Below are positions 44,373-64,000 of a DNA stretch of 64,000 nt, in pieces; the first letter of the stretch is position 1; each line of letters starts with the position of its first letter. The position numbers and the translations under genes are program-made. The DNA comes from Russula earlei (Eukaryota; Basidiomycota; Agaricomycetes; Russulales; Russulaceae). The notes beneath the pieces were generated by a model. It was not told where the DNA came from. It ran no database searches and was given only the letters and a program-made list of their open reading frames with translations. The stretch covers positions 62,001 through 126,000 of the forward strand of contig JAGFNK010000024.1 of the NCBI GenBank assembly GCA_025769875.1, written 5' to 3'.

Positions 44373-46387
44373 AGTCCTAGTGTGGTTTGTTCCACACCTC
44401 ACATGAAAAAAATAGTTGATGACACAACAGAGGCCAACATAAAGAAGGCAGCCCAAGACCTCAAGGATGGGATCTACAAAACATTAACTGATGCAGCAAA
44501 AGCATATGAAGTCCCCTATCACACAATGCATTGAAGGTGCTTGGGCAAAACTGCACCTAAAAAGGAAGCACATAAGAAGCAGCTGCTTCTCAGCCCTTCG
44601 CAGGAAGAAACATTGGTGGAATGGATCAAGTATCTTGGTGTTACTGGACACCCAGTCAACCAATGGACTGTTTGCCCAATGGTCCAGTCAATGCTTCCTC
44701 CTGCTTGCAAGTGGACAATCTTAAAGTCATGGATCTGCTGATTCACAGTATGTCAAGGAGACCTAAAGTTGGGGTGAGGATCAGGACTTGATCCCAAATG
44801 GGCTTGGGCATTCAACTTTTCAACAGTCCAGCATCACTTTCAACTACTCAAATTGCATATGGAGGAGCATAGAATACCTTGGGAGAACATTTACAACATG
44901 GATGAGAAAGGGATCCAACTTGGCAGAGGGTGGAAGGGCACTGGGCTGAAGTTTTACTTCATGAAAGCAGACATGTCCCGGTACAAGTTGAAAAGTGATG
45001 ACCTTCAGCTGGTGACAGTCATTGAGGTTGTGTGTGCCAATGGAACATTCACCATCAAACCAGGGTTTGTATTCCTGGGTTCTACAAATCGTCCAGAGTG
45101 GTTCTGTGAACCAGGAGTTATGTGCATAATCCTTTGGAACACAAGCAGACAAGGATCCTGACTTGAGATTAGAGTCATGATGTCCAAGAATGGTTGGACA
45201 GATGATTTTATTGGGCATGAATGGTTTGAGAAGTGCTTCATTCCAGGTGCAAAGGTGCGCAACACATCTGGAAAGCCAATTTTACTTATATATGATGGGC
45301 ATGGCTCACATACAATGCTGGAAGTGATCACATTAACCCAAGAACATGGAATCAATCTTTTCTGCCTTCCACCTCACACTATGCATCGCCTTCAACCACT
45401 GGATGTTGGCGTCTTTGGGCCACTTCAGACAGCATGGTTTAATCAATGTGATAAGATTATCTTTGAAACAGAGCAAGGGATGGATATCAAAGATGTTGTC
45501 GAGGAGTACATGGCCACAAGAACCAAAGCTTTCAAAAAGGAGACAATCCTTCACACTTGGAGACGATCTGGCATCCATCCTCTCAATCCAGACATCTTTA
45601 CCCAAGCTAACTTTGCCCTAAGTGTCTTGACTTCCACACTAACACACTCTCCTAAATCATTTCCATCTAGAATGCCCCCTGCCCCTGATGCATCCTCCAA
45701 TGACTTGTTTGACCCAACTGCACCCCTTGAGGACAAGCCTGAGATTGGAAGCGGTGGCAGTGATGGTGGCTCTGACTCTGACTCTGAGTCATCCGATTCC
45801 CAGGACAACTCAGAGTCTGGTGTGAGGGAGACATCTACCTTGCATGTCATTGACCCTTCTCTCTGTGGACCTGAAGACTCATTGTCATCCATCCCTGGTC
45901 CTTCCCTATTACCCATGCATGTGGCATGACATGCTAGCACACCAACACCAACACCTACTCCCAGATGAACATGATCATTCTGCACAACTTGCAATGTCCT
46001 ACTGCAGGCCCCCACTAGCATTGAGACTCTCCATTCTCTGGTGCTAAACCTTGACCACTTTTGGAGCATGTAAACAATTTAGAGGCCCAGACAGCAGAGC
46101 TCTGGGAACATATTATGGAGATGGCAGCCCAACAAGATGCTGCCAAGGTCCATGCAGTGTTCATGCAGCATGAAAATGCTGTTTTGAAGCATCAATTGAA
46201 TTGCCAAGCACAGAAGAAAGATGGACTGGGTCATCGAATCCAAACATCTTTGTGGGTTGTAACCTCAGAGCAAGGCATCCAGGAGGCTACTGCTGATTGA
46301 GTGGCATGGGACAAGGAGAGGAAGGCAGCTGAGAAGCAAAAGAAGAAGTCAGATCAAGAGTATGAAAACCTCATACGGCGGGCTACA
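44373..46387 (+). pseudogene. Pogo-type DDE transposase pieces
   Basis: In order: an N-terminal helix-turn-helix of the Psq type (AQDLKDGIYKTLTDAAKAYEV, about 44450-44510), then after a stop a CENP-B-like segment (SPSQEETLVEWIKYLGV). The first catalytic aspartate is in YNMDEKGIQLG (about 44896-44928), the second in YDGHGSH (45292-45312), and LPPHTMHRLQPLDVGVFGPLQ (about 45367-45430) precedes the third. A serine/aspartate-rich tail follows, with a coiled coil that runs to 46387. At least three breaks are present. Confidence 0.8.
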
Positions 46388-58402: not shown

Positions 58403-59834
58403 CTACATAGGTGGAGAGGACTCGACCGATATTGGCTTTTGTACGGCACTCCAGAATTCTTCGCCCTCGAATCTCTTCACAAGTCTGTAATAATATTCTC
58501 TGTGCCGTTCATACTGCTCCCAGACACTCTCGTACATGCCCTCGACGGCCACCTGAGCACGGGTGCGCGCACTCGATTCCTCCAGCCCATCTTGCTGGTC
58601 GTTAAATAGTCGCGCGAGAGCCATTCCAACATAGCATCCCATCTCAAGGGCGGTCATCATTCCTTGAGACGACAGCGGATCAAATGCGAGCGCCGCATCG
58701 CCCACCGCGACCCAGCCCTCGTCAACCAGGTCGCACGGTGGTACGAGTCGCGAAGAGCCTGCGGCAGTGCAGCGAGGGAAGCCACTGCTCTGGCGGATGG
58801 GTTCGTATGCGTGTTTGTTGAGGAGGCCGGAAATGTGCGTCGTTGACCAATGGACCGCCTGGAGGAAGCCCTCTGACCGCCGGGCTTGCCTGGCCGAGGG
58901 GTGCGTAGGGTACGTGTGGAATGAGACGAGGCGTGTCGACGGTGCCGACTCGGAAGTGAGGCGCGGAAGGAGCGCAGTATAAAACCAGCCTTCCGGAGTA
59001 GCTTCAATTACTGTACGGTGATCTGTGTCCGCGTCTGGGGTATCGTCGGGAGAAGGTCCCAGATATAACGTGTAGAAGGAGAGAAGCGGCTCAGACGAGA
59101 TCGTCTTTGCGCCCAGCTGCGGTTAAACATTCGGTTAGAAGGTGGATGGGAAGACTGTTGGTGTGACCCGGGATGTGAGATACCTTGGTGGAAACACTGG
59201 CTTTCCGTCCCGTTGCGTCAACCAACCATCTTGAGAAGAAGGTCGAGGATATGCCGTTCACATCAACGTGGACCGACCAGTGGCTTGAAGAGTTTTTCTC
59301 GGCGTGCTTGAAGGTGCCCTTGATCAGCGTGCTCGCAGATGCGCCGCGGGGTGAGCCATCTATCACGACTTGACGAAGCATCTCGTCAAAGGCAGCTCGA
59401 TCCAGGTGAAGTCCGTGTCCGAACGGATTGAAGATGGCATGGCGTTCTTCGAGAAGAGGAGTGGCCCAGGCCGAGGCATTCCCGGTGCAAGGGGAGTGAT
59501 GGCCCGAAGCGAGGCGAGGTAAGATGGACGGGTGCAGGTGCCGTAACAAGGAGGAGGATTCAGGAGGAAGGGACTCCCCTACCTGCACAGGGAGTCAATC
59601 ATGGCCATTGGTGAAATAGAGGACCAATACGCACCTTGAAGGCAGAGGGATCCGCATTGTCCACCACGAGAAACGACGCGTCCGAGTGTTTCAACAGCGC
59701 CAATGCAGTCGCACAACCGGCAGGTCCGCCTCCAAGCACGATCACTGCTCCAGACGGTCATCCTTGTCTCCCGTTTCGCTGCGTCGACGTCAACGAGGGC
59801 TCTCACCGTGATAAACGGTCTCTGCTCCCTGCAT
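58403..59834 (-). CDS. LodB-like / tryptophan-halogenase-like FAD-dependent monooxygenase (417 aa)
   Basis: Exons 59834-59807, 59747-59635, 59582-59184, 59116-58403 join to 418 codons. The FAD-binding Rossmann motif VIVLGGGPAGCATALAL is near the N-terminus. VGESLPPES, the DATGRKA motif (about residue 170) and the GDAALAFDPLSSQGMMTALEMG segment (about residue 325) are hallmarks of the flavin monooxygenase/halogenase superfamily. The length is close to bacterial LodB/GoxB (about 370 aa), shorter than tryptophan halogenases (about 530), and I see no WxWxIP halogenase motif. It is divergent to a LodA-like gene, as expected if it matures that partner. Substrate is unknown. Confidence 0.85.
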
Positions 59835-60366
59835 CGCGGTAGAGCAGATCCCTTGAGCCAAGCCGAGTTGGATGACTCGTTGTCTAGGCTTCTTTACGTC
59901 GCAGGAACGGCCCTAGAGCATCCCGGAGACTTTTCACGTCCCTGACACAAGGATCCCAAATCGAGTGTTCTTTCGACCACCTGATCCATTGTTAAACTGA
60001 CATTCCCCGACGCCGGCTGCCCAATGCGTGTTGGTTTCCGCAAAGCTTCCGGTATTAGGCAGGGCGATCTGCCAATCTTCCCATGCTAGCGGTCATCTCA
60101 TGGAGTATCGTTATCGATTTCATGGGAGCGAACCCTTTAGCTCGAGCGGGAGCGGGAATCCATTCATTAGTTTGACGGCCTTGCAATCAGGCGCATCCCC
60201 GGACTTTGGAGGAGGGATGGCTCTAGAACGCCAGGCAAAGACTTGGGACTCCACAGCCCGCAGGCCGAGCCAGGGACAATACAACAAGCAAGAATTTAAT
60301 AAATGGAAGCGACGTTTAGCCTCCCTCCTCCACGTCTCGCTCCTCTAAAGTCCCACTTTAGGCACT
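59835..60366. promoter_or_regulatory. Shared divergent promoter of the LodB-like and LodA-like genes
   Basis: The two start codons are 532 bp apart. On the plus side ATTTAATAAAT (60294-60304) lies about 65 bp before the ATG and may serve as TATA element. The rest is unique sequence with no gene. The arrangement suggests co-regulation. Confidence 0.6.
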
Positions 60367-63300
60367 ATGGCGAGCCTACAGGAGGCAATTGATGTCTCTG
60401 CCATCCACACCGTTCGAATATATCCCAGGATTGGGATCGCGAGAGTAGGCAACTCCGTTTCCCCCTCAGGCTGGTACTATGGACCTGAGGTACCCGGACG
60501 ATTCGACGAACCTGAAGTAGGCTTCAAGGACCATAACGGGGCAGTTAATCGACAGGCATGTTTCCTTGTTTGCCGACCACATTCCAGTGTTGATAAATGA
60601 TCGCGCCCTTCCCAGGCTGCGCGTTTCCGAGTCTACGCCTTCGACGCCAAGGGTACAGTTCTGGGCGAGCTTAATAGTCAATCTGGCTTTGATCTTAACT
60701 GGGCCGTCGAAGTGACAAACCGTAAACCTGCTTGGTATACTTTCATGGGTAGGTCGTTCACCCTTAAAGTTGTGCGTCCGAGTACGGGTTCATGATCCTT
60801 CTTCAGGTGGTCAACAGCCTGGGGCTTTCGAACCTGGGAACACCACGCTCCGTAATCCCACAGTTCAACCTGATGTCAGTTCATCGTGCCGCCTCTTATG
60901 TCCAATCATTAATTAACGTCCTCACAGCTTCCTCCAGAGAAACGAGATAAACTCACCATTGCTAGCGGTGTCAAGCAAGTGAGAGGCACACATGCTGACC
61001 CCGTCGCCCTGCAGGGCCAGTTCTATGGATCGAAGGACGTTCCAACGGATGTCTATCTAGGCGAGATAAGCACCGATGGATCTGGTCGTTTGGTGGTCCT
61101 TGCTGGCCGTGGTCATTCTTACTCTATTACCGATAAGGATCAACCCTATCCGTGGATTCTCACCGATTTCGATTCTCCTGACTGGATTGACGACACTTGT
61201 GATGGCAGAGTGAATGTCCAAATTCAGCATCGTGACTCTCATCGGTGCGTGCGACACCTCGCCGCCTCATATTGTTGACGAATTTCCTTCTGTACCATAG
61301 CGTGTTCGTGCCCCGAGAGGCTGCCCGTGTCATCGGGGCAACTCCCAAATTTGCGTTCGGCATATATGCACCTACCTCGCTTTATGACCTTATGGAAGAT
61401 GTTTATGAGAGAGAGAAGCGCACATCTTTCGGAGAAGCGTACGACGTTGGCGTGGTAGGATGGTATAAACACATTTGGCCCCTCCTCCAGCGGCCTTCCC
61501 TTATTAGCTGGGTCAATGGACAAGCTAATCGAGGTCACGGTCAGTCAGGTCATTGTTCTTTGACCTCTGTTTGACCTCATGTATCCGTTCAGGACCCAAC
61601 GCGAACGGCAATTTCTTTGATCCTCAGTGGCAAGAATGGCTTTCTGATCCACGTAAGGAGCGTGAGGCGATCCGTAAAGGAGTCTTGGGTCGTATCCGGC
61701 TGCCCACGACTAATGGAAAGTACGACCGTGCGCGAGCAGGACAGGCCTTCCCTTACTTCATGCCCTGGCTCTCTGGCGATAATGGCACGACCTATTTGTC
61801 GTCCACTTTCTTTGCCCGTTTTGACCTTTCATGTAGGTCGTACGACGTATGGCGATCCCACTACTTTCTCGTCGATCACAGAATTACAGTACGATCGGTT
61901 GGTGAAATGGAGCAAGGGCGATTTCATTGTCGGGCGTCCTCCGCCTCCGCCTCCACCTCACATAGAAGACCTCCCGCTCCAAATGCAGCCGAACGCGCTC
62001 ACCAAGGCATCTTTGGAGTCGACAATTGGCGCGCCGCTGTATCCGGGAATTGAATTGTCCTGGAACGCGGAGCAAAGCGAGACGTACAATCTCGATGTTC
62101 CATTTACCATCAGCGACAATGTCCGCCCAGGAGACTTGACCAAGTACCTTTCGCTCCCCTGGCAGAGCGACTTTTACATGTGTCGATCATATTGGTGATC
62201 GTCGTGGTTTTAGTTGGTTGAACTACGGCTGAGCGATTACCCTCCAGGTGGCCCTCCGCTCGTCCGGATGCTATCGTCACGGTGGAAGTGTATGACAAGG
62301 TCAAGGCCAAGTTTCCCCCAGAGGAGGTCGCGAAGAATCTCAACGACCGTGTCCCTTGGGAACGCGGCCTGTTGCTAAACCATACAGGTGTGTGTTTTGA
62401 TAAGCTTCATTGTACGAAAAGATTCAGGCTTGTCACTTTTCAGATACCTACCCCGATCAACCATTATTTGCCAACACCGATATGGCTAAGCACTGGCACC
62501 AGCTTGGTTTCGTTACACAGAAACCATCTGTTGGACCTACGCCTATATTCGTGGAAGTGCAGCGTGGTGTCATCAAGCGAGACGGCAATTTAACGGGCCC
62601 ACCCAAGGATCATCCACCCTACGGCAGACTCCCTTTGCCACTCCCTGACACGCCCCATCGTAGTATTACGACACTCAAGAGCCTTCGAGAACATCTACGT
62701 GCTGCAATGGCTGTCGAGCTCAGCACTATCCCGCTGTATCTCTACGGGATGTACAGCATTAAGACCCCGAACGCGTACATAAATGATCCCAGGTATCACG
62801 ACCCAATCGTCGGGGCCGTACGTGGTGCGTTCCTGTCGACCTCAATCTGGAGTCTCCGGTCGTAGATCTCTTTAATCCATTCAGGTGTTGTGTCCGAGGA
62901 GATGCTCCACCTCAGCCTTGCAGGAAATATTCTCCTGGCTGTTGGTGGTAAGCCCAGGCTCTATGACCCTCACATTATTCCAAAGTATCCTATGGACATG
63001 CTGGACAGAATCCCACCTCTTCTCCTGCAGCTGAGGGCAATGACCAAGCCCAACCTTGACACTTGGCTGGAGGTTTGGGTTCTGTTCTAGACTGATTTCT
63101 ACTGAGTTCACTGATATATAATAATGCAGGTCGAGAGACCTGAACAGCCTAATGGTGCGCCTGAATCAGATAAATATCATACACTTGGCCAATTTTACGC
63201 CGCCATCAAGGAGGGTAGGTTGATTGTACTGATGCCACTCACGTTCTTTCGGCTCATGGCTCACAGGGCTCGCTTATCTGAACGCACGGATTCCGAACCT

Positions 63301-64000
63301 CTTCGACCCTAACACAGCCCCGTATCAATTTGCGTCCGGCCTGGGCTATCAACCTCAAGTGCGCGATGCAGGAGGCTCAGTCATTGTCACTGATCTGGCT
63401 AGTGCGGATTTGGCAATCGATATCATCGTTGATCAAGGAGAAGGCAATCCAGGACCATTTGATGACAAAGACAATCTTGAAGAATCTCACTATGCTACAT
63501 TCCTTGACCTGCAGAAGGGTAAAGCGACCTGGCATGTACACCCCGTCATAACAAATCCAACAACACGTGGTTACTGGGAACTAGACAAGAGGATTTATCA
63601 GGTTAGAATCGATGTCACTCTTTTAAATACCAATATTCAAAGCGATACACAAAACACAGGTTTCCGTCGCATTTGACGCTGCCTACTGCTTCTTGCTGCT
63701 TACGATCGAGAAGCTATGGACCATCAGTAACGATGATAGCAGGCAGGCTCTTGTCCTTGGCAACATGTTTTCGATCATGATGGGCGTTCTCGCACCATTA
63801 GCGAAGTTCCTAGTAACACAGCGAATCGGCAACTCGGATGAAGTAGCGGGTCCCTGCTTTGGTTATTATCCCTTCAATCGAAAAGAATCGGCCCTCAAAC
63901 AATTGCAACGCGAGATGCGGGAAGCCATCGATGTGTATGTAGACGTCACTCCAGAAACGCCAGACCAAGTCCCTGTAACCGACTATGGCGCGCAAATCGA
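60367..64000 (+). CDS. LodA-like quinoprotein oxidase domain fused to VioB/RebD-type ferritin-like domain (partial)
   Basis: Thirteen exons in the window: 60367-60555, 60616-60748, 60807-60874, 60928-61244, 61301-61539, 61593-61784, 61837-62194, 62248-62387, 62444-62824, 62884-63072, 63130-63214, 63267-63601, 63660-beyond 64000. They give 989 codons with no stop. The N-terminal LodA-like part has VRIYPRIGIARVGNS, RQAARFRVYAFD, GRLVVLAGRGHS, APLYPGIELSW and LPWQSDFYMC...WWPSARPD. From about residue 630 a ferritin-like domain follows (AAMAVELSTIPLYLYGMYSI, VVSEEMLHLSLAGNILLAVGG), with glutamates and histidine at metal-ligand positions. LodA proteins oxidise amino acids with a cysteine tryptophylquinone. 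VioB-type domains dimerise imino acids. No cysteine is present in the segment where I expect the quinone-forming one. Confidence 0.85.
60556..60615 (+). other. GC-AG intron in the LodA-like gene
   Basis: The exon ends CAG and the intron begins GCATGT, a good GC-type donor, and ends CCCAG. The joined residues NRQAARFRVY match the family, so the GC donor is needed. Confidence 0.65.

Follow-up and report, generated by a model that had tools for sequence, protein, structure and literature searches.

Known LodA-type systems and PF12902 proteins

The closest described oxidase/maturase pairs are LodA/LodB from Marinomonas mediterranea and GoxA/GoxB from Pseudoalteromonas luteoviolacea, neither of which has the ferritin-like half found in the protein described here. 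In fungi, oppositely oriented lodA and lodB genes with a separate PF12902 (ferritin-like) gene nearby were reported by Campillo-Brocal et al. in 2015 (PMC4417212). In that paper, some LodA proteins bear a catalase-fold domain (Table 3), and the table of fused LodA proteins gives PF14518, PF00199, and PF13519 only. The trio of oxidase, maturase, and PF12902 protein is therefore already known in fungi, and a LodA-PF12902 fusion is absent from the 2015 fusion table. No description of such a fusion was found in the open-licence literature on LodA, GoxA, and cysteine tryptophylquinone (CTQ), on PF12902, or on VioB and RebD, covered mostly as titles and abstracts.

The group V fungal LodA proteins, as that paper presents them, resemble the Russula earlei case in being Agaricomycete LodA-like proteins with an opposite lodB-like gene and PF12902 close by. 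They differ in that their ferritin-like protein is encoded by a separate gene, whereas in R. earlei it forms the C-terminal part of the oxidase (PMC4417212). The dimer synthases RebD, StaD, and VioB are likewise proteins of about 1,000 amino acids that end in a PF12902 domain, comparable to that of the fusion in position and extent. They rely on a separate FAD amino acid oxidase and are described as part of a pathway cluster (PMC10851217). The ferritin-like protein CC_0557 from Caulobacter vibrioides (Protein Data Bank entry: 3hl1) is, unlike the fusion, a stand-alone chain of 317 residues.

A divergent gene pair in Russula earlei

Positions 58403..64000 of the window (the whole stretch of DNA analysed, 64,000 nucleotides) contain two divergent genes, whose start codons lie exactly 532 bp apart. 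The minus-strand gene runs from 59834 to 58403 and, according to the splice model, encodes a flavoprotein of 417 amino acids in four exons. The public R. earlei model has 416 amino acids; an ambiguous acceptor site accounts for the one-residue difference. The fusion protein of 1,034 amino acids is encoded on the plus strand in 13 exons, from a start at 60367 to a stop at 64139. Its end, 139 nucleotides past the window end, was taken from the host contig. The features are as follows.

58403..59116, minus strand: exon 4 and stop codon of the LodB/GoxB-type flavoprotein gene (splice model; public 416-aa model concordant except for one residue)
59184..59582, minus strand: exon 3 of the flavoprotein gene (splice model)
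59635..59747, minus strand: exon 2 of the flavoprotein gene, with the GGGPAG FAD-binding motif (splice model)
59807..59834, minus strand: exon 1 of the flavoprotein gene, start codon at 59834 (splice model)
59835..60366, no strand: shared upstream region of 532 bp between both start codons (gene-model coordinates)
60367..62443, plus strand: exons 1 to 8 of the fusion gene with introns, LodA-like part, aa 1-545 (gene model, Pfam)
60367-60555, 60616-60748, 60807-60874, 60928-61244, plus strand: fusion exons 1 to 4
61301-61539, 61593-61784, 61837-62194, 62248-62387, plus strand: fusion exons 5 to 8
62444..62824, plus strand: fusion exon 9, with the conserved LodA-like end (about aa 546-590), linker, and start of the ferritin-like domain (single open exon)
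62885-63072, 63130-63214, 63267-63601, 63660-64139, plus strand: fusion exons 10 to 13, ferritin-like domain and C-terminal tail
64137-64139, plus strand: fusion stop codon, beyond the window end

The region 59835..60366 presumably acts as a bidirectional promoter. Pfam analysis of the fusion protein revealed LodA_N (aa 19-236; 4.8e-51), LodA_C (aa 375-506; 7.7e-25), and Ferritin-like PF12902 (aa 630-846; 7e-43, 147.5 bits), all well above the cut-offs. The sequence-only reading, which had described two divergent genes separated by 532 bp and a partner of about 1,000 amino acids with a LodA-like N-terminal part followed by PF12902, was thus confirmed in coordinates, length, and domain order. 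When the 66.6-Mb host genome was searched in all six frames and the best candidates were scored, LodA_N, LodA_C, PF12902, and the flavoprotein were matched at this locus only. The divergent pair with the fusion is real and not a chance arrangement.

The fusion is one gene and is conserved in other fungi

Joining of two separate genes by a modeling error would give the same domain order. Such a split is suggested by the R. earlei database model P0121, which comprises the ferritin half only (477 aa), by the LodA-only (594 aa) and ferritin-only (483 aa) models of Cyathus striatus, apparently on one contig, and by the separate PF12902 gene described for other fungi (PMC4417212). The first residue of P0121, for which no LodA-half counterpart was seen in R. 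earlei, corresponds to position 559 of the fusion. This position falls inside the conserved end of the LodA-like part, which was present in all 10 stand-alone fungal LodA proteins checked, and the split-gene reading was rejected for this reason. In addition, the LodA/ferritin junction lies within exon 9, which spans it uninterrupted. Fusions of comparable length are recorded in Russula dissimulans, Sphaerobolus, Psilocybe, Volvariella, and Jimgerdemannia, in line with the conservation in other Agaricomycetes that had been proposed as a check. The full-length fusions P0003 and P0005 (1,056 and 1,045 aa) lie on contigs of just 3,438 and 3,229 nucleotides and hence have no introns, like a spliced transcript; these contigs probably represent transcripts. 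Two separate proteins are therefore extremely unlikely, and P0121 illustrates how an automatic gene model can be cut partway through the oxidase.

The pairing with a maturase gene apparently recurs as well. At least 20 of 48 named fungal LodA sequences, on 18 contigs, apparently share a contig with a LodB sequence among the 120 listed of 1,465 LodB matches, a count of apparent shared contigs and not of proven adjacency. In the tree, the 37 sequences beyond one branch (SH-aLRT 99) comprised all named fungal sequences and five more; the placement of Jimgerdemannia was not firm in either of the two trees. By arrangement and tree, the R. earlei pair belongs with group V, an assignment to the group as a whole rather than to any one of the five sequences in the paper.

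The flavoprotein resembles GoxB and LodB

The highest-ranking profiles for the flavoprotein were GoxB (184.1 bits; 3.8e-54), LodB (169.1 bits; 1.4e-49), and QhpG (117.5 bits; 6.9e-34), which agrees with its earlier description as a LodB-type protein. All three scores lie below the equivalog cut-offs (400 bits for GoxB and LodB). In support of the FAD-binding motif, residues G14 and G19 were invariant among 42 aligned homologs, and the gene adjoins a lodA-like gene, as is the case for the LodB and GoxB maturases. The protein exceeded the Pfam Trp_halogenase cut-off (29.3 bits versus 21), and its best sequence match in the PDB was a halogenase. A halogenase assignment was nevertheless rejected, as the halogenase motif WxWxIP is absent and the GoxB, LodB, and QhpG models scored far higher.

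The oxidase half

A confident structure model of an orthologue of the fusion superposes on LodA/GoxA, as had been suggested for verification, and on a solved PF12902 protein. Of the two oxidase models, GoxA gave this half the better score (303.7 bits, versus 117.3 bits for LodA), and both scores lie below the NCBIfam equivalog cut-offs (750 and 600 bits, respectively). The proposed LodA/LodB type thus held for the pair at the family level but not at the equivalog level, where the GoxA/GoxB models scored higher and all scores remained below the curated cut-offs. Consequently, no substrate can be named for the oxidase.

Comparison of the putative cofactor site revealed Asp491, Cys495, and Trp499/Trp500. 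Cys495 is the only cysteine invariant in all 34 aligned sequences, in which Trp499 and Trp500 are invariant too. Cys495 and one of Trp499/Trp500 form the putative CTQ pair matching C516 and W581 of LodA, which itself stood outside the alignment, so that either Trp may be the counterpart of W581. The active-site residue His583 of GoxA is not conserved; of the 28 fungal sequences with a residue at this position, 27 have Tyr or Phe. The columns assigned to GoxA Tyr766 and His767, a probable correspondence, are not conserved in fungi either, and Phe316 apparently is. The replacement of His583 and the variable Tyr766/His767 columns indicate that the known substrates do not transfer to the fungal oxidase.

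The ferritin-like half and its probable role

The ferritin-like half has a conserved set of Glu and His residues, which judging by the sequence is probably a di-metal carboxylate site. Since RebD is described as heme containing (PMC10851217), the C-terminal half could carry heme instead of two irons.

The preferred explanation, held with moderate confidence, is that the fusion is a CTQ amine or amino acid oxidase matured by the divergent flavoprotein, with the ferritin-like half acting in cis on one of the oxidase products, H2O2 or an imine. In the LodA/GoxA-family half, Cys and Trp side chains would be converted to CTQ with the aid of the LodB/GoxB-type flavoprotein. This half would then use O2 to turn an amino acid-like substrate into an imine or aldehyde, releasing H2O2. 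The ferritin-like half would act on the product within the same chain, most likely by consuming or using H2O2 and possibly by oxidizing the imine further. To our knowledge, CTQ enzymes have been studied in bacteria only, and the fusion would be the first eukaryotic one studied. Two genes are enough to express the whole conserved eukaryotic set, which comprises the oxidase, the putative maturase, and the partner domain.

A bolder version, possible but doubtful, is a self-contained two-step eukaryotic oxidase in which the CTQ half would make an imine or aldehyde and H2O2, and a di-iron or heme site would use this H2O2 to oxidize the imine or aldehyde once more or to couple it. One polypeptide would then do the job of a RebO/RebD-type pair without leaking peroxide.

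A purely protective function is quite unlikely. Here, the ferritin-like half would remove H2O2 or bind iron and so shield the cell from a cytosolic oxidase, consistent with the catalase-fold domain on other LodA proteins (PMC4417212, Table 3). Structure comparison also revealed similarity of the bundle to Dps and bacterioferritin, a weak indication for helical bundles. However, the PF12902 proteins of known role, RebD and VioB, act on organic substrates. The protective function overlaps the preferred explanation and differs from it just in having no second organic reaction.

The sequence-only reading had proposed coupling of the VioB/RebD kind, leading to dimeric pigments or defence compounds. 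Such a protein would combine the tasks of RebO and RebD, or of VioA and VioB, in one chain: alpha-imino acids made by the oxidase would be joined in pairs by the ferritin-like half. The pairing of an oxidase with PF12902 parallels RebO/RebD. Furthermore, the ferritin-like half aligned with a RebD-type protein from a Pseudonocardia plasmid with an indolocarbazole-like gene set (L095) over 319 columns (hhalign, 99.2%); EExxH, ERPE, QGEG, and SHY blocks, including acidic and His residues, are common to both. However, the VioB profile gave only 22.6 bits with the fusion (cut-off, 1250), covering the ferritin part alone, whereas the RebD-type protein reached 762.9 bits, itself below the cut-off. 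Alignment of the fusion profile with RebD was confined to columns 601-929, which matched RebD 659-1038, and the N-terminal half of RebD is missing in the fusion. For the one RebD-type protein analysed, neither Pfam (up to E = 1) nor hhalign matched this half to LodA. At the sequence level, the idea that RebD is a degenerate LodA-ferritin fusion was therefore rejected; a distant fold relation between the RebD N-terminal half and LodA may exist. For the majority of PF12902 proteins, no role is known, which also speaks against the dimer reading.

Neighboring genes

The nearest neighbors tested encode housekeeping proteins (NOT3, ribosomal protein L7/L12, and LYS2). The next gene downstream is LYS2-like, with TIGR03443 matched in two pieces (2.9e-93 and 3.7e-168) and frames for the reductase domain. 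LYS2 makes an aldehyde that is also yielded by lysine 6-oxidation; a link to lysine was rejected, as the oxidase is not LodA specific by profile scores. The Pfam scan covered 10 chosen frames of 49 on the left and, on the right, 20 of 26 non-overlapping frames of at least 110 aa (window positions 67902-87000); most of these 10 and 20 frames had no Pfam match. Past LYS2, 10 to 19 kb to the right (74 to 84 kb in window numbering), lie a P450-like frame (0.00034, below the Pfam cut-off), an acyl-CoA dehydrogenase-like frame, and a DAO-family FAD oxidoreductase frame (6.1e-37). GH88 and an elongation factor fragment were also matched. The weak P450-like and FAD oxidoreductase frames would fit a dimer pathway. 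However, no tailoring genes adjoin the pair among the frames scanned, and the frames beyond LYS2 probably do not form a cluster with it. Together with the low VioB score and the lack of a LodA match in RebD, the housekeeping neighbors make the dimeric-pigment route unlikely.

Association of PF12902 with lodA in bacteria

Among the best 80 of 417 bacterial lodA loci, several of which end at contig edges, a lodB-like frame was found near lodA in 79. A PF12902 frame within 10 kb was found in four, all from Actinomycetota and one of them weak (2.4e-5). This result indicates that LodA enzymes can do without a ferritin partner. It also bears on a role of the ferritin-like half in building the cofactor, in which it would put the first hydroxyl on the CTQ tryptophan or deliver metal to the site and have no part in turnover. 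The tryptophan needs a first hydroxyl group before LodB or GoxB acts, a step described as presumably autocatalytic and copper dependent in LodA (PMC7876137), and the fungal ferritin part stays with oxidase and maturase. However, the rarity of PF12902 near bacterial lodA argues that it is not generally needed, and a cofactor-building role appears rather improbable.

The same three protein types are encoded by adjacent, codirectional genes on plasmid p3 of Azospirillum brasilense (L093) and likewise in Azospirillum sp. TSH58, as three genes in the order ferritin-lodA-lodB instead of the fused gene of R. earlei. The Azospirillum oxidase is closer to LodA than to GoxA, with about 30% identity between the bacterial proteins and the fungal halves. 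Three arrangements taken together, namely the fused gene, the separate genes of other fungi, and the Azospirillum row, suggest that CTQ oxidases and PF12902 proteins can cooperate. Such cooperation offers a way into the PF12902 family other than through pigment synthesis. LodA was matched in 37 plasmid records, part of which were inspected against the PF12902 matches listed (60 of 188 and 60 of 166 records). PF12902 was the next gene in at least two of them (Azospirillum), lay about 7 kb from LodA on the same strand in at least two (Mycetohabitans), and about 14 kb away in at least two (Bradyrhizobium barranii). In some other LodA plasmid records, the distance was tens of kilobases or more.

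Gene models and arrangement of the pair

Both gene models were built by hand, guided by splice signals and homologues, in contig C24 of the genome of the agaricomycete Russula earlei (66.6 Mb, 1374 contigs); the window covers bases 62001-126000 of that contig. The flavoprotein is the LodB/GoxB-type partner; the fusion joins a LodA-like oxidase part to a PF12902 ferritin-like part.

Genes of the divergent pair (window numbering)
59834-59807, 59747-59635, 59582-59184, 59116-58403, minus strand: flavoprotein gene, 417 aa, hand-built model
60367 to 64139, plus strand, 13 exons: fusion gene, 1034 aa, with the final 139 nt outside the window

The sequence-only reading had placed the two start codons 532 bp apart, and the coordinates of both models bear this out. 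The public flavoprotein model (F5148DRAFT_374642, 416 aa) is one residue shorter, at an acceptor site with two possible readings. The best NCBIfam models for the flavoprotein were GoxB (3.8e-54), LodB (1.4e-49), and QhpG (6.9e-34), all below cut-off, and its PDB sequence matches were mostly halogenases, with CmlS and QhpG (7ctq) included.

Evidence for a single oxidase-ferritin protein

Pfam analysis of the fusion revealed LodA_N (residues 19-236, 4.8e-51), LodA_C (residues 375-506, 7.7e-25), and PF12902 (residues 630-846, 7e-43). In a profile search of the host genome, in which the best candidates were scored, each of the three was reported at this locus only. Among the NCBIfam models, GoxA scored higher than LodA (303.7 versus 117.3 bits), neither close to its cut-off, and the VioB match, 22.6 bits where the cut-off is 1250, was confined to the ferritin part. 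The 12 PDB sequence matches comprised GoxA, LodA, and the PF12902 protein 3hl1.

A database model of this locus (P0121) starts at fusion residue 559 and gives a ferritin protein of 477 aa. This start falls inside a LodA end that is also present in all 10 stand-alone fungal LodA proteins checked, and a single open exon (62444-62824) bridges the two parts. GC-AG ends were found in two of the 12 fusion-gene introns, 60556-60615 (after 60555) and 61785-61836 (after 61784); the products spliced across both match the R. dissimulans protein in alignment. These two introns may be one cause of the splitting of the gene by automatic annotation.

Of 295 relatives, 120 were listed, and 10 of these combine PF12902 with a LodA domain. 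Full-length fusions of 1025 to 1056 aa among the matches listed come from R. dissimulans (72%), Sphaerobolus stellatus, Psilocybe cubensis, Volvariella volvacea, and Jimgerdemannia flammicorona, which belongs to the Mucoromycota, and include two JGI sequences; two partial sequences pair LodA_C with PF12902. The Mycena maculata model is shorter and holds all three domains. The JGI fusions (1056 and 1045 aa) lie on contigs of only 3438 and 3229 nt and thus lack introns, as would be expected if these were transcripts. We take the fusion as real and regard the anatomy of pair and fusion as well founded.

Origin of the fusion

The LodA and ferritin trees were quick searches with support by SH-aLRT only. 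One branch of the LodA tree (SH-aLRT 99) separates 37 rows, namely, all named fungal rows and five others. A clade of 11 (SH-aLRT 99) holds the query, seven fusions, the LodA halves of two split models, and a LodA-only Volvariella paralogue (P0013); Jimgerdemannia lies outside it, its placement unresolved in the tree. In the ferritin tree, a clade of 16 rows (SH-aLRT 99) takes in every fusion supplied except that of Jimgerdemannia, and the stand-alone ferritins of Rickenella, Piloderma, and Auricularia lie near it (93). By these trees, a single fusion event would be the simplest account.

The V. volvacea fusion P0006 and its paralogue P0013 come from contigs of equal length and group together in the LodA tree, which suggests either a duplicated gene that lost its ferritin part or a broken gene model.

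Conserved residues of both halves

Alignment of 34 proteins revealed Cys495 of the fusion as the sole invariant cysteine, beside the likewise invariant Trp499 and Trp500. Asp491 corresponds to GoxA Asp678, and 33 of the 34 proteins have Asp there. GoxA positions 583, 316, and 678 were located from a sequence alignment and mutant names. Of the 28 fungal rows with a residue in the GoxA His583 column, 27 have Tyr or Phe and one has Leu; the Phe316 column holds Phe in 26 of 27. Neither residue is kept in fungi in the columns taken for GoxA Tyr766-His767, which were assigned from the GYH motif of the bacterial rows rather than by comparison with GoxA itself. The conserved Cys, Trp, and Asp residues indicate that cysteine tryptophylquinone (CTQ) is probably made, but the changed GoxA positions suggest that, by the known rules, a substrate other than glycine or lysine is likely.

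In the ferritin-like half, the columns of Glu678, His681, Glu737, Glu822, and His838 are invariant across 42 PF12902 relatives, and that of Glu637 is at least 90% conserved. The conserved blocks recur in a RebD-type protein from a Pseudonocardia plasmid (762.9 bits with the VioB model), and together these features suggest a metal site. RebD-type enzymes are described as heme-containing (PMC10851217).

A conserved C-terminal tail of roughly G-A-K-G-F-A-(R/K)-G (residues about 1013-1034; 64071-64136, past the window end) closes most of the full-length fusions and of the ferritin models in the fusion clade. It is missing in Volvariella P0006, Jimgerdemannia P0009, and all three stand-alone fungal ferritins compared, and the region is poorly predicted in the structure model.

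Genomic neighborhood and proposed function

Left of the pair, Pfam revealed frames for Not3 (2e-42) and for ribosomal protein L7/L12 (8e-19). Single frames 10 to 19 kb right of the fusion gave a P450 match that stayed below cut-off (0.00034), as well as matches to an acyl-CoA dehydrogenase, a DAO-family FAD oxidoreductase (6.1e-37), and a GH88 hydrolase.

Features right of the fusion (profile matches)
64865 to about 69400 (L003-L004): LYS2-like aminoadipate reductase, next to the fusion
L004 6523-6912: P450-like frame (weak)
L005 252-740: acyl-CoA dehydrogenase-like frame
L005 4520-5623: DAO-family FAD oxidoreductase frame
(the last three lie right of LYS2, at 74-84 kb in window numbering)

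Lysine 6-oxidation yields the same aldehyde as LYS2. A DDE_1 transposase-type frame lies at 45162-45929 (PF03184, 1.1e-18).

Pfam matches of single frames on both sides revealed no recognizable pathway cluster around the pair. The sequence-only reading had proposed a route to dimeric pigments, with a coupling enzyme of the RebO/RebD kind in one chain; this appears unlikely. No gene adjoining the pair points to a pigment pathway. The most likely mechanism, to which we give about an even chance, is a CTQ oxidase whose cofactor would be matured by the divergent flavoprotein and whose ferritin-like half would deal with H2O2 or the imine in cis. LodB and GoxB are required for CTQ formation, with mono-hydroxylated Trp as the substrate, according to PMC7876137.

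Association of LodA and ferritin genes in bacteria

Among the best 80 of 417 bacterial lodA loci, a lodB-like frame lay near lodA in 79 within the DNA examined; in the remaining locus (L069), the sequence ends about 300 bases past lodA. A PF12902 frame was present in four of the 80, all Actinomycetota. On Azospirillum brasilense plasmid p3, ferritin-like, LodA, and LodB genes follow in succession, separated by 61 and 19 bases, and Azospirillum sp. TSH58 carries a gene set 96-98% identical. The association is therefore present outside fungi, yet uncommon.

Campillo-Brocal et al. 2015 (PMC4417212) describe five fungal LodA proteins with lodB oppositely oriented and a PF12902 gene near or between the two, and list PF14518, PF00199, and PF13519 as domains fused to LodA. 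The pair and its ferritin neighbor in fungi are thus known, and no paper on a LodA-PF12902 fusion was found in the open-licence literature searched. The present analysis adds that oxidase and ferritin-like part form one polypeptide and that this arrangement is conserved in Basidiomycota and a single species of Mucoromycota. It also adds the split model in the database, a structural match for each of the two halves, and the gene row in Azospirillum.

Upstream of this row and divergent from it lies a di-heme oxidoreductase gene (L093 429-2378); TTQ, a cofactor related to CTQ, is matured by the di-heme MauG (PMC7876137). A Streptomyces sp. (L074 8768-15832) has, lying together, genes for a LodB-like protein and for a LodA protein of 1055 aa whose long N-terminal extension is putatively catalase-like (by eye), with a PF12902 gene about 1.6 kb further on. 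In the bacterium Mycetohabitans endofungorum, isolated from Rhizopus microsporus, LodA-LodB-type genes on the megaplasmid (L096 1-15731) have a ferritin-like gene on each side at a distance of about 5 kb; one of these two ferritin-like genes adjoins a 3-dehydroquinate synthase gene and lies near eboE.
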